Source: a virus
Length of the DNA stretch: 64,000 nucleotides
Strand: one strand, 5' to 3'
Virus record (IMG/VR): IMGVR_UViG_3300044630_000280
Span: 1-64,000 of that record
A model generated the notes under the pieces. That model was not told the origin of the DNA. It made no database searches and worked only from the letters and a program-made list of their open reading frames with translations. Positions 55,454-61,887 of this stretch are shown piece by piece. Both the position numbers and the translations under genes were made by a program. The first letter of the stretch is position 1, and every line of letters starts with the position of its first letter.

Positions 55454-56030
55454 CTGTGCTTGGGTTTGGATCAAGCCTTGGATCTGGGTCGGCAACGCCT
55501 AACTCTTCATCCAAACTATCAGTCAGTGGGGTTACATCAATAACATTGGCATTAAGTAAGCGTTTGATGCGTTCTTTGATTGCCTCTTCCAATCCTTCGG
55601 AAGTTTTGTGATTAACCGTAATCTCACTTCGTTCAGTAAACAAGCCTATGTCACTGTGCTTACCTAACAACTCCAACGCCTTTAGCTCATACCTCGTGTC
55701 ACCGCAGTTGGCGATTTCCAAAAGTTTAGCCGTGATAGCTGAGCGGACTTCATTGGCATCCGCAGCTAACTTATTAGCGTAGGTCTTCAAAAATAATGAT
55801 GCAGCGAAAGCAGTCTCGGGGCGTTTGAACTCCTTAACAGCTTTTCTAGACTTAAACAAATCAACTGTCTTGTCTAGGTCGGCAGTATCGATCTCAATAG
55901 AGGAACCTAGTTCTTTCAACAGATCAGCTGTGTTGGCAGCAACGACTACTTTGTCGTGGAAGGTTTTGGCCTCCTCGGGTTCTGTTGTGTAAGGGACCGG
56001 CTTTCCCTCTGTGGGTTCGATATTAACCAT
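55422..56030 (-). CDS. Probable terminase small subunit, 202 aa
   Basis: Located directly before TerL and overlapping it, with a helical N-terminal part (about 30-110), a middle block ANCGDTRYELKALELLGKHS which in TerS proteins follows the DNA-binding domain, and a C-terminal ERIKRLLNANVIDV stretch with a Pro/Asp-rich tail. It would recognise the packaging site and load TerL. The start codon lies directly at the predicted start of the late transcript, without a ribosome site. Confidence 0.8.
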   Translation of the reverse strand: MVNIEPTEGKPVPYTTEPEEAKTFHDKVVVAANTADLLKELGSSIEIDTADLDKTVDLFKSRKAVKEFKRPETAFAASLFLKTYANKLAADANEVRSAITAKLLEIANCGDTRYELKALELLGKHSDIGLFTERSEITVNHKTSEGLEEAIKERIKRLLNANVIDVTPLTDSLDEELGVADPDPRLDPNPSTDDPDPETEPT

Positions 56031-56035
56031 GCCCG

Positions 56036-56066
56036 ATTATATAGCATAAATAATAATACGTGTCAA
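56036..56066 (-). promoter_or_regulatory. Main late promoter (- strand), apparently leaderless
   Basis: On the - strand a perfect TTGACA (complement of 56061-56066) is followed after 17 bases by TATATA (complement of 56038-56043), with an overlapping TATAAT (complement of 56036-56041, spacing 19). The predicted start falls at about 56031, right before the terS ATG. The -10/-35 are the best in the window. Confidence 0.75.
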
Positions 56067-56386
56067 AAACGATTTGGGACTCCTACCCGGGGGGTGTTTC
56101 TGGGAACGATGTTGCGTAAGGTTAGCAAAAAAAGTGAAGGGGGTGGGGGTATGTAAGACAATGTTAGGGAAGTTATGGGGAGTGGTATTGGCTGTGCAGA
56201 TTAGGGTGTATGTAGAACGTGGGACTCCTTCCTGCCCATGTTGGGGGGTGGGGGTTAGCTATGCCACCAGCTTTGCTTCGTTATGCCATACCCTCAGTTG
56301 TGACTAACGATGTTGCCTTTGCTTTTGATGTTGTCTTTGCAGGCAAGCCCCGCAGGGAAATTTTGTTCTTATTATTGCTTGCGTAT
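56067..56386. other. G-rich non-coding control region with 10-bp repeats
   Basis: No credible gene is visible between the late promoter and the early leader. TGGGACTCCT occurs at 56075-56084 and 56220-56229. GGGGGTGGGGG occurs at 56139-56149 and again at 56244-56254. TGTAAGA occurs at 56152-56158. The G tracts lie on the + strand. Candidate roles are a packaging-site region next to terS or a regulatory site; nothing proves either. Confidence 0.5.
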
Positions 56387-56878: not shown

Positions 56879-57373
56879 ATGACAGCAAATTTACTCACTA
56901 AGTCCGAAGTCACCGAGTTAGCTAAGTCCGTTGCAGGGCGCGGCAAGTCACTCAATCGTGACATTCAGAAACTTGCAGCAATGGCAATAGGTTACGCCAA
57001 CATTCATGGCGATGTAACCGTTGCTCAAGATATATATGCACAGTTATGTGTAAACAAGGCTTTGCGCTTAAAGTCATTCGTTGCCTATTTAGAAACACAT
57101 GGCAAATTAGAGTATGACAAGTCAAGCAAGAATTTTATCTACCGTAGACGTGACGATGTAGAAACAGATGTAATGTCATTGTTTATCTCGTTGTCAGATT
57201 GTCTATGGTACGAAGCGCTTAAGGAAGCTGAGCCGGTGTCAATGTATGACTTGTCCGCTAAGATTGCAGCGCTCGTCAAGCAAGCCGAGAAAATGGCAGC
57301 GCAAGAATCGACAACCGTTGCTCACCTCGAATTATTAGAGCCACTACGTAGCTTAGTAGTAGCAACCAACTAA
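56879..57373 (+). CDS. First early protein behind the long leader, 164 aa, unknown
   Basis: Helical, mixed-charge protein. The middle part (RDIQKLAAMAIGYANIHGDV, then QLCVNKALRLKSFVAYLETH and KLEYDKSSKNFIYRR) may be a small DNA- or RNA-binding domain; a helix-turn-helix cannot be claimed. ATG at 56879 has AAGGA 8 bases before it; the open frame upstream to 56768 is not supported. Its stop codon is the first strand of the hammerhead ribozyme, so its mRNA 3' end is probably made by self-cleavage. Confidence 0.7.
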   Translation: MTANLLTKSEVTELAKSVAGRGKSLNRDIQKLAAMAIGYANIHGDVTVAQDIYAQLCVNKALRLKSFVAYLETHGKLEYDKSSKNFIYRRRDDVETDVMSLFISLSDCLWYEALKEAEPVSMYDLSAKIAALVKQAEKMAAQESTTVAHLELLEPLRSLVVATN

Positions 57374-57424
57374 GGCGAAACGGGCGCAAGCCCGTCTAAC
57401 GGTCAAGCCGTTACTGATGAGCCT
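57373..57424 (+). ncRNA. Type II hammerhead ribozyme
   Basis: All invariant core bases are present in the order of a type II hammerhead. Stem II is AGGC 57373-57376 with GCCT 57421-57424. GAAA is 57377-57380. Stem III is ACGGGC 57380-57385 with GCCCGT 57390-57395, closed by a GCAA loop. The cleavage base is C57396. Stem I is TAACGG 57397-57402 with CCGTTA 57408-57413. CTGATGA is 57414-57420. Predicted cut is between 57396 and 57397. The first stem base overlaps the stop codon of the preceding gene. Confidence 0.9.
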
Positions 57425-57486
57425 AAATCTAACAATGTCATACAATGTAAGGGAAAGTGTTGCTTTGTAAGAAACTTTTGGTTGCT

Positions 57487-57503
57487 TTGTAAGAATCTTA
57501 CAA
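57487..57503. promoter_or_regulatory. Palindrome TTGTAAGA-A-TCTTACAA
   Basis: Perfect 8-bp arms about one central base (57487-57494, 57496-57503). A likely binding site for a dimeric regulator or initiator. Also could form a small hairpin, but without a T-run in either orientation it is not a terminator. Confidence 0.7.
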
Positions 57504-57664
57504 TACAAAACTCCCTTTAGAATCAATGGGTTAGGCTTATATGCCATACAATGTAAGGTTGTAAGAACTTTTTTAGAGTGACTTTGGGAAATTGAAGTCG
57601 ATCGAAGCATCTCGCAAGTCAAGATAAGCACAAGCCTCACGAGGGCTTAATTTCTAAAATTCTC

Positions 57665-57693
57665 TTACATTATTACAATATAATAGATATAGT
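57665..57693 (+). promoter_or_regulatory. Possible early promoter
   Basis: TTACAT at 57665-57670 and TATAGT at 57688-57693 are 17 bases apart; TATAAT at 57679-57684 overlaps as an alternative. The -10 lies in GATATAGTAG, the same word as upstream of the leader at 56.4 kb. Start of transcription would lie before the run of tiny early genes. Confidence 0.4.
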
Positions 57694-57735
57694 AGGTACA
57701 CCAAGCTATAACCCGCATAAACACTAGGTTTTGCT

Positions 57736-57757
57736 TTGTAAGAAAAAGTTCTTACAA
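57736..57757. promoter_or_regulatory. Palindrome TTGTAAGAA-AAAG-TTCTTACAA
   Basis: Perfect 9-bp arms (57736-57744 and 57749-57757) with a four-base spacer. It is the strongest inverted repeat of the cluster and lies 58 bases before the next start codon, inside the predicted transcript or promoter area, which would fit a repressor site. Confidence 0.75.
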
Positions 57758-57814
57758 TACCCCCCGATTTTCTTACAATCTTACAATACATTTCTTACAT
57801 TACAAGGAGCTACT

Positions 57815-57979
57815 ATGAAAGCATCAGATATTCTCATGCTAACCGGCACTATATTGCATGTCGTGTTCTTAGTATCAGTTATATTTTTTCCAATGCCATT
57901 ATTCCCTGCCGCATTGCTTACTGTGTTAGGCATAGCGTATCAGGGCTATGGTGTCTTTATGTCCTACGAAGGGAGCTAA
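57815..57979 (+). CDS. Small membrane protein, 54 aa
   Basis: Two hydrophobic helices (about residues 4-26 and 28-46) with almost no soluble part: ILMLTGTILHVVFLVSVIFF, then ALLTVLGIAYQGYGVF. ATG at 57815 follows AAGGAGCTACT. It is the first gene after the operator-like cluster. Function unknown; in this place a superinfection exclusion or host membrane role is possible. Confidence 0.65.
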   Translation: MKASDILMLTGTILHVVFLVSVIFFPMPLFPAALLTVLGIAYQGYGVFMSYEGS

Positions 57980-59411: not shown

Positions 59412-60479
59412 ATGGCTGAAATAAATTTCGGTAAGACCGTCACACTCAAACAAGCTGCGAAGATTATCGTAGCATCCCCAAAGAATCGTTACTTACTACG
59501 TGGTGAGCCGGGCATTGGCAAGTCAAGTCTAACCGCAACCCTCAAAGAATTATTACCTCGACATCACGTTGCATATATGGACGTGCCCAACATGGACTTA
59601 GGTGACATCGCCATGCCCGTAGTGGACAAGGACACCAAGACTACACGTTACTATCCCAATGCACGATTCATGTTTCACACAGGCGAGCCAGTCATTGTCA
59701 ATCTTGACGAGTTCACCAAAGGCGCAGAGCCAATCAAGAACATGCTGCACCCACTACTCGAAGCACACAATCCTAGACTAGGTGACGTGCCAGTACATAA
59801 CGAGTCAATCATATTCCTTACAGGTAACTTAGCAACCGATGGTGTCGGTGACAATCTCAAAGCACACAGTCTTAACCGTATCATCCCATTGAACATCGAG
59901 AAGCCGAGCTTTGAAGAGTGGGCAGAGTGGGCTATGAATCATGGCATTGCACCAGAAATCTTAGCGTTCGGTCGTATGATGCCGCAGATATTTGCAAGCT
60001 ATACCGATGCAAGCCAGAAAGAAAATCCTTACATCTACAATCCGCTTAAACCTACACAAGCATACGTATCCCCTCGTTCACTCGAACGTGCAAGTAACAT
60101 CGTCAACATCAGACAGCAGCTAGATAACGAAAGCGTAATAGCTGCGCTAACAGGAGCGATAGGCGAATCAGCAGCACGTGACTTCCAAGCCTACCTCGAA
60201 TACTCAGACCAACTACCTACATGGGAGTCGACAATCAAAGACCCTAAGGGTGCGCTTGTACCTAAGTCCGCAGGTGCAGCAGCAATCGTCGTGTTCGGTG
60301 CAATCCAGAAGGTAGACAAGACTACGATCGAGCCATTCATGCAGTACTTAGAACGCTTCACCGAAGAATGGCAAGCAGCGTTCGCAATCAACATCGCTAA
60401 GTCCAAGACCAAGCAACCCGTTGCATTCAGTTGCAGAAAGTTTAGCGAGTGGGTAGCTAAGAACGAGGACTTACTGTGA
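59412..60479 (+). CDS. MoxR-like AAA+ ATPase, 355 aa
   Basis: Walker A GEPGIGKSS (about residues 32-40), Walker B VIVNLDEFTKG (about 96-106), sensor 1-type IIFLTGN, and Arg finger/sensor 2 region SPRSLERASNIV, in the order of MoxR/CobS-like ATPases. These AAA+ proteins work as chaperone-like remodelers with VWA partners, and a VWA protein follows two genes later. ATG follows AAGGAGCTAAC behind a strong promoter. The 3' end overlaps the next start by 4 bases. Confidence 0.88.
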   Translation: MAEINFGKTVTLKQAAKIIVASPKNRYLLRGEPGIGKSSLTATLKELLPRHHVAYMDVPNMDLGDIAMPVVDKDTKTTRYYPNARFMFHTGEPVIVNLDEFTKGAEPIKNMLHPLLEAHNPRLGDVPVHNESIIFLTGNLATDGVGDNLKAHSLNRIIPLNIEKPSFEEWAEWAMNHGIAPEILAFGRMMPQIFASYTDASQKENPYIYNPLKPTQAYVSPRSLERASNIVNIRQQLDNESVIAALTGAIGESAARDFQAYLEYSDQLPTWESTIKDPKGALVPKSAGAAAIVVFGAIQKVDKTTIEPFMQYLERFTEEWQAAFAINIAKSKTKQPVAFSCRKFSEWVAKNEDLL

Positions 60480-60706
60480 GAGAGCCTAGATATTTCATAG
60501 CATGGGTGAGTGAGGACAATGTAGGTAAACCCAACATGCCATATCTAGCAGCACGTAAGGAGTATATGTACCGAGTATTCAGGGAGGACTTTGACAACAG
60601 CAATGCTGCACCTATTACAGAAGCAATGACGTATGAGGAAGCAGAAGCAAAGAGAAAAGAAATCTTATTACTAACTAAAGGTAAGGAGCTAGCATGGATA
60701 GCATAG
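60476..60706 (+). CDS. Small protein between MoxR and VWA genes, 76 aa
   Basis: A small alpha/beta protein (EPRYFIAWVSEDNVGKPNM, then MTYEEAEAKRKEILLLTKGK). It overlaps both neighbours (4 and 13 bases), so it is part of the module. No family recognised. Confidence 0.65.
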   Translation: MREPRYFIAWVSEDNVGKPNMPYLAARKEYMYRVFREDFDNSNAAPITEAMTYEEAEAKRKEILLLTKGKELAWIA

Positions 60707-61887
60707 ACAGGGAAGAACGTAAGGTCAAGAAGGTCAAGATCAGTCTAATGCGTGAGCCTAAGTTTGCATTGTGGCAGGGCGCAATGATGATCGGCAAGAC
60801 TAGCATCGAGGACGATATACCTACGGCTGCAACCAACGGTCGTGATGAGTTCTATGGGCGGGAGTTTGTTAAGGACTTGACCGAGAAGGAACTGGCATTC
60901 GTTGTTCTTCACGAATGTATGCACAAAATTTACCGGCACTTAACTACGTGGCGAAAGCTGTACGACGAGGACAAATACCTAGCTAACGCAGCTTGTGACT
61001 ACGTTATTAACCTTGAGCTATTCGACATGGACAAGGAAGGCAAGTATATCGCTAGACCTATTAAGAACGGCAAGCCGATAGGTTTACTTGATGAGAAGTA
61101 TCGTGGCATGAACACCAAGCAAGTCTATGACCTACTTAAGCAGCAGCAAGAAGAAGGCGGGGACTGTGGTTGTAACTTTGACGAGCATGACTGGGACGGT
61201 GCTGAGAACATGACCGATGCCGAGAAGAAAGAGTTGTACAAGGAAGTCGAGCAAGCTATACGGCAAGGCGCAATGACACACCAGAAACTTAATGGTAGTG
61301 GCGCAGGTGGTATGAGTCGTGAGCTAGGTGAGTTGCTTGAACCCAAAGTTAATTGGCGTGAGCAGCTACGTGAGTATGTTAAATCAATCTGTGCAGGAAA
61401 GGACGCATCATCATGGAGACGAGTAAACCGCAGGTACATTGGGCAAGACGTGTATATGCCCACGTTAATCAGCGAACGAGTAGGACACATAGTAATCGGG
61501 ATAGATACAAGTGGGTCTATCGGGGGCAAGGAATTAAACGACTTCCTTTCTGAAGTCAAGGGTGTAGCTGAGGAAGTATCACCTGAGAAGGTTGACTTGT
61601 TGTATTGGGACGGGGAGGTAGCAGGACATGAAATGTACGATGCTGCAACGGTGGGTTCGATCATTGATTCTACTAAGCCAAAGGGTGGCGGTGGCACTTC
61701 ACCTTCTTGTGTCAGCCAATATCTTAAAGATAAGGGAATCAAACCAGAATGCACAATCATGCTCACCGATGGTTATGTTGGTTCGGATTGGGGTAGCGAT
61801 TGGGAATCGCCAGTCCTCTGGGTTATCGTGGGTGGCAACACTGCCACAGCACCTAACGGCAAAACTATTCACATCAAGGGGAACTAA
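60694..61887 (+). CDS. VWA-domain and putative metallopeptidase protein (DUF2201-like), 397 aa
   Basis: The N-terminal part carries a zincin motif, VVLHECMHKIYRH (HExxH at about residues 72-76), in the arrangement of DUF2201 putative metallopeptidases. The C-terminal part is a von Willebrand A-like domain with the MIDAS motif IDTSGSI (Asp270-Thr-Ser-Gly-Ser274) and a later MLTDGYVG. A MoxR ATPase plus VWA is the standard pair, with the VWA protein as the substrate-binding partner. Ribosome site AAGGAGCTAGC. Confidence 0.88.
   Translation: MDSIDREERKVKKVKISLMREPKFALWQGAMMIGKTSIEDDIPTAATNGRDEFYGREFVKDLTEKELAFVVLHECMHKIYRHLTTWRKLYDEDKYLANAACDYVINLELFDMDKEGKYIARPIKNGKPIGLLDEKYRGMNTKQVYDLLKQQQEEGGDCGCNFDEHDWDGAENMTDAEKKELYKEVEQAIRQGAMTHQKLNGSGAGGMSRELGELLEPKVNWREQLREYVKSICAGKDASSWRRVNRRYIGQDVYMPTLISERVGHIVIGIDTSGSIGGKELNDFLSEVKGVAEEVSPEKVDLLYWDGEVAGHEMYDAATVGSIIDSTKPKGGGGTSPSCVSQYLKDKGIKPECTIMLTDGYVGSDWGSDWESPVLWVIVGGNTATAPNGKTIHIKGN

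Follow-up and report, generated by a model that had tools for sequence, protein, structure and literature searches.

A type II hammerhead ribozyme abutting the stop codon of a phage early gene: a recurrent arrangement and a candidate route to mRNA 3' ends

Type II hammerhead ribozymes were described in 2011, together with their tendency to cluster near genes of phages and the proposal that they cleave phage mRNAs (PMC3088659). In that work, clustered hammerheads flank phage genes (Agrobacterium ardA, Clostridium scindens, Azorhizobium) and were proposed to cut long transcripts into gene-length mRNAs; on phage transcripts carrying several hammerheads, all sites were cut in vitro, and one set was cut in E. 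coli (PMC3088659). A review treats the role of prokaryotic hammerheads as an open question (PMC6155905), and a 2023 paper states that it is unknown why they are associated with genes of phages (PMC10085705). The term "stop codon" is absent from PMC3088659, where an anchoring of hammerheads to stops is not mentioned, and we found no report of such anchoring in the accessible literature, with most subscription papers lying outside it. Here, we analyzed a viral DNA stretch of 64,000 nucleotides (the window; positions 1 to 64,000 of record IMGVR_UViG_3300044630_000280) that carries a single ribozyme directly behind a stop codon. The ribozyme belongs to a known kind, and the general anchoring of this kind to stop codons is the part worth following up.

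An earlier note, made from the sequence alone, had read positions 57373-57424 on the + strand as a complete type II hammerhead, and the 52 bases indeed hold all core bases and three stems, at the coordinates originally given. Read 5' to 3', they comprise the 5' strand of stem II (AGGC, 57373-57376), the core GAA (57377-57379, extended to GAAA by the A of the stem III closing pair), the stem III hairpin (57380-57395, strands ACGGGC at 57380-57385 and GCCCGT at 57390-57395 around a GCAA loop), the C17 position at 57396, the stem I hairpin (57397-57413, strands TAACGG at 57397-57402 and CCGTTA at 57408-57413 around a TCAAG loop), the core CTGATGA (57414-57420) and the 3' strand of stem II (GCCT, 57421-57424), which pairs with 57373-57376. 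Stems I, II and III thus span 6, 4 and 6 base pairs, with a possible extra U-G pair on stem I, and the invariant CUGANGA and GAA elements, the A-U pair closing stem III (A-T in the DNA) and an H (not G) at the cut are all present. From its position in the RF02276 alignment, C17 is the predicted cleavage nucleotide, placing the predicted cut at 57396/57397. Energy minimization folds the RNA into the hammerhead itself, in which loops close stems I and III while stem II opens to the flanks; the free energy of this fold is -22.5 kcal/mol (z -3.2; none of 200 shuffles was as stable), and the stem III and stem I hairpins contribute folds of -10.8 and -6.2 kcal/mol, respectively.

The Rfam model Hammerhead_II (RF02276) aligned to the ribozyme from end to end, supporting the assignment of both hairpins and both core segments. 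The check proposed in the earlier note, an Infernal search with this model, gave a significant match of 35.8 bits (E 4.4e-6 in a search of 201 bases) that lies below the gathering score of 37 bits, which is why a default Rfam scan of the window came back empty. The 37-bit threshold was set by curation on a longer consensus and carries no structural requirement, and class members with short loops score lower. Against the whole record (66,130 bases), the match had an E value of 3.4e-7 and was the only one. When run on 3.8 Mb of reversed sequence, a purpose-written type II scanner returned no match, and a scan of the window for type I and type III hammerheads found none. A competing reading as a c-di-GMP-I-GGC riboswitch scored 13.1 bits where 59 are required, and was rejected. 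Regarding tertiary contacts, loop I (UCAAG) has, by reading, no 4-nt complement in the tail AAAUCUAAC. The pseudoknot that commonly joins loop I to the tail in type II is therefore not evident, and quick intracellular cleavage cannot be taken for granted. The form of this loop I, GU-N-A-N-GC, is however widespread across the type II class, so that a tertiary contact of another sort is possible.

A search with the upstream protein, independent of the ribozyme motif, gave a sole close relative, 96% identical, on contig IMGVR_UViG_3300020159_000130, which we refer to as the sister phage. There, 50 of the 52 ribozyme bases are kept (96%), while the gene is 89% and the next 100 bases are 79% identical. 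The two changes fall on one stem II pair and convert G-C to A-T (AGGC/GCCT to AGAC/GTCT), an outcome for which we estimate a chance of about 0.004 if two random changes in 52 bases are to make one restored pair. An unrelated phage locus, L207, found through the stem I sequence alone, has the same stem I, while its stems II (GATC/GATC) and III are wholly different yet perfectly paired; its ribozyme begins with the base directly after a TAA stop. The structure is thus conserved by compensation in two relatives, the sister and L207. Beyond the sister, no ribozyme copy was found among 80 scanned relatives identified by their terminase large subunit (TerL), and a DNA search among annotated phages gave no near match. 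Seven relatives with TerL identities of 72-85%, several of them represented by records of 41-63 kb, have neither the gene nor the ribozyme. As the Rfam search overlooked the sister ribozyme, these absence calls also rest on the scanner wherever sequence existed. Since gene and ribozyme are both missing from related phages, the pair is dispensable in this lineage and appears to come and go together.

The ribozyme directly follows a gene on the same strand, as the earlier note had described. This gene (56879-57373, +) encodes 164 amino acids, matches PHROG_1448 (E 6e-24) and ends in a TAA stop at 57371-57373, whose final A doubles as the first base of stem II. In T7-like Pseudomonas phages, relatives from PHROG_1448 occupy the first or second place among the early genes, which makes the label of an early gene reasonable; no solved structure was found for the protein, and in six T7-like neighborhoods other PHROG_1448 genes had no adjoining hammerhead. 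The overlap of stop and stem II by a single base, although correctly noted for the window, is not conserved, given that the sister stop ends 5 nt before GAA, as compared to 3 nt in the window. Downstream lie 390 nt of non-coding DNA (57425-57814, +; 79-91% identical in the sister) that contain eight of the nine window copies of the palindromic 8-mers TTGTAAGA/TCTTACAA, a cluster resembling an operator or origin. The next gene (57815-57979, +; 54 aa) has AAGGAG ahead of its start. The distance from the ribozyme core to this start at 57815 is about 390 nt, and a close downstream cistron (within about 60 nt) is absent. Between the early gene and the next gene, no terminator-like site was found on the + strand.

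Several further features of the record were seen. In related phages, many contigs stop about 400-800 bases upstream of the TerL gene, corresponding to window positions 56030-56300. This suggests a physical genome end near 56030-56300, in which case the gene at 56879 would be the first one rightward. Bases 1-100 of the window are repeated near the record end, from position 65990, which suggests that a circle of about 65,989 bases was assembled. The product of 60694-61884 is a DUF2201 metallopeptidase/VWA-like protein, which together with the AAA ATPase encoded at 59412-60476 forms a MoxR/VWA-type pair; its PHROG label "HNH endonuclease" looks doubtful.

We next consider how type II hammerheads are placed relative to genes in general. 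Two viral pattern scans, using different stem II patterns and covering at least 120 stretches each, were complemented by a bacterial and archaeal scan of 118 stretches, of which 15 loci passed the structural scan. A ribozyme was counted as anchored if a same-strand stop of an open reading frame of at least 60 aa ended between -2 and 12 nt before GAA, after removal of near-duplicates. Among the matches listed, with reading frames called mechanically and kinship ignored in the statistics, this applied to 94 of 174 and 119 of 179 viral and to 15 of 26 bacterial and archaeal ribozymes, compared to 4-5.5% for randomly chosen positions and 4-8% for the opposite strand. With one listed ribozyme per locus across the three samples, 118 of 204 had a stop no more than 12 nt before GAA, where 8.7 were expected. 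Among these matches, stop abutment is the commonest arrangement for phage type II hammerheads, and the view of the earlier note that the exact stop coupling is unusual was not supported. The modal spacing between stop and GAA was 3 nt in both viral samples, identical to that in the window, where the TAA ends 3 nt before GAA. Genome compactness as the mere cause of abutment was rejected by a slack control: within listed gaps offering at least 60 nt of slack, 90 of 169 ribozymes abutted the stop, compared to 12.8 under uniform placement. About 40% of the loci showed no abutment. On the downstream side, most ribozymes are followed by a start preceded by a Shine-Dalgarno sequence, with a median distance from the core of about 28-29 nt in both viral samples, a pattern expected for cuts between cistrons. 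Among the matches listed, 56 of the 76 ribozymes far from any stop were within 60 nt of a start, whereas 70 of the 101 with a far or absent downstream start still adjoined an upstream stop. Abutting cases without a close start, which include the window ribozyme, are a minority (73 of 204). A stop fit common to more than half of the ribozymes, in unrelated phages, points to a protein-free role in making mRNA ends.

The sampled loci revealed additional hammerhead features. In about 11% of the type II ribozymes listed (43 of 390, as compared to 6.8 in shuffles; for example L223, L228, L237, L281 and L292), an NTCAG element that could pair with the core CTGAN follows soon after stem II. Its variable base covaries with the core: CTGAT occurs with ATCAG in 36 cases and with GTCAG in 7, CTGAC with GTCAG in 7 and with ATCAG in 1 (Fisher p 2e-4). 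The resulting hairpin may lock the core after the cut or turn it off; the element is absent from the window ribozyme. Similar phage loci also held 13 type I or III hammerheads (L448, L069, L233, L075, L221, L266 and others), a scan that gave no match in the reversed control. The Streptomyces phages R4 (L451, NC_019414) and Hank144 (L452) carry type II hammerheads in arrays amid small genes; Rfam finds 9 in R4 and 8 in Hank144, in each case on a single strand. Their neighboring genes are mostly hypothetical, and the ribozymes are missing from the returned annotated feature tables. In Hank144, the gaps between stop and GAA measure 5, 18, 20, 20, 27, 45, 47 and 275 nt.

Taken together, we consider it fairly probable that this genuine type II hammerhead serves as a protein-free mRNA 3'-end former, a punctuation mark of the operon, and the formation of the early mRNA 3' end, as proposed in the earlier note, is retained as the best explanation. 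In the proposed sequence of events, the early gene would be transcribed, ribosomes would finish at the TAA, and the RNA would fold and cut itself at 57396/57397. The upstream mRNA would keep a 3' tail of about 23 nt with the GC-rich stem III hairpin at its end, while the downstream RNA would begin with a 5'-OH flush on the stem I hairpin. Hammerhead chemistry leaves a 2',3'-cyclic phosphate, which would form the new mRNA 3' end. To our knowledge, no circular permutation other than type II closes both stem I and stem III, and for this reason a type II cut leaves a hairpin on each product. These hairpins would be expected to shield the ends from 3' exonucleases and from decay that depends on a 5'-monophosphate, much like the ends that RNase III makes between T7 early genes. 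The hairpin on each end, the 23-nt tail and the lack of a terminator-like site on the + strand favor 3'-end formation. Against this role speak the loop I with no evident partner in the tail, the looser stop gaps of Hank144 and the dispensability of the pair in the lineage. In addition, with 390 nt to the next gene in place of the usual short intercistronic layout, no downstream cistron would be directly punctuated at this particular locus.

The long non-coding stretch behind the ribozyme raises the question of which product the cut is for. It might instead serve the downstream side, splitting the non-coding leader with its operator- or origin-like repeats off the early mRNA and setting a downstream 5' end, the stop position being incidental. 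The 390 nt of conserved DNA with its dense repeat cluster would fit such a role, as would the many other ribozymes that lie about 28 nt ahead of a Shine-Dalgarno start and the 56 of 76 stop-distant ones no more than 60 nt from a start. However, the 70 of 101 ribozymes that abut a stop despite a far or absent start, as the window ribozyme does, indicate that the stop side anchors the arrangement, and we regard a purely downstream purpose as unlikely. A different possibility concerns the ribosome. The size of the ribosome footprint is established, and a ribosome terminating 3 nt before GAA, the modal spacing, would have the 5' half of the ribozyme within its footprint, hiding GAA together with some of stem III. 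Cleavage could then occur only when the gene is untranslated, an uncut message marking active translation and a cut one a message retired or released. The spacing is much tighter than genome compactness demands, consistent with such a switch, but selection for a short 3' tail would by itself yield equal spacing, about 40% of the loci show no abutment, and hammerhead cutting is generally slow compared to ribosome transit. Accordingly, a ribosome-gated switch seems improbable to us. We view as speculative, too, a broader proposal, in which a module shared by many unrelated phage lineages (stop, 3 nt, type II hammerhead) would rely on RNA catalysis, instead of terminators or RNase III, to generate mRNA 3' ends, with the spacing coupling the cut to translation termination through a terminating ribosome that blocks or triggers it.

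Two other accounts deny the ribozyme a function. Gene and ribozyme might have arrived as one selfish or inherited cassette in which the ribozyme is merely carried along, functionless for the phage. Both parts are missing in the sampled relatives with TerL identities of 72-87% and present in the two closest phages, and the other PHROG_1448 neighborhoods checked lack a hammerhead. Against this, the compensatory pair and the 96% identity of the ribozyme, which exceeds that of the gene (89%) and of the 100 nt that follow (79%), argue for selection on the RNA, and stop anchoring recurs in unrelated phages, leaving a passive cassette very unlikely. Smaller still is the probability that we assign to a chance look-alike or an inactive relic: while the Rfam score slightly under the gathering cut-off and the lack of an evident type II pseudoknot would be in line with it, the core bases are all intact, the sister shows the compensatory change and 3.8 Mb of reversed control sequence gave no match.

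Returning to the preferred role in mRNA 3'-end formation, stop anchoring in more than half of 204 separately located loci translates the association of hammerheads with phage genes into a specific and testable proposal. It would also explain the preference of phages for type II, the only type to provide a hairpin at both new ends. Streptomyces phage R4, with its 9 copies, should offer a practical test system.

Compared to the described systems, the window ribozyme shares with the RF02276 class (Perreault et al., 2011; PMC3088659) the permutation that opens at stem II, the core bases, the C at the cut, the small closed stems I and III, the phage genome and the adjoining same-strand genes, and it differs in its score (35.8 vs a gathering score of 37) and in that its loop I shows no obvious pseudoknot pairing with the tail. 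The hammerheads that flank phage genes come in clusters, whereas the window ribozyme is a single copy in a 66-kb record, with 390 non-coding nucleotides behind it instead of a gene. The HHphage elements of haloviruses HF1 and HF2 are likewise a hammerhead variant in a phage early region (PMC3088659), yet they sit 13 nt upstream of a start codon, whereas the window ribozyme sits behind a stop. Streptomyces phage R4 and its relatives (Arquatrovirinae) also carry type II hammerheads, located between small genes on one strand, but with many copies, longer stem I loops and, in Hank144, looser stop spacing. In T7-like phages, RNase III cuts between early genes and leaves hairpin-capped mRNA ends. 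Because the upstream gene belongs to PHROG_1448, an early family in such phages, this processing of early messages would be the natural analogy, the predicted ribozyme products likewise arising from a cut between early cistrons and ending in hairpins. The two routes differ in agent and chemistry, RNase III being a host protein that generates 5'-phosphate and 3'-OH ends, whereas the hammerhead generates 5'-OH and 2',3'-cyclic phosphate ends.
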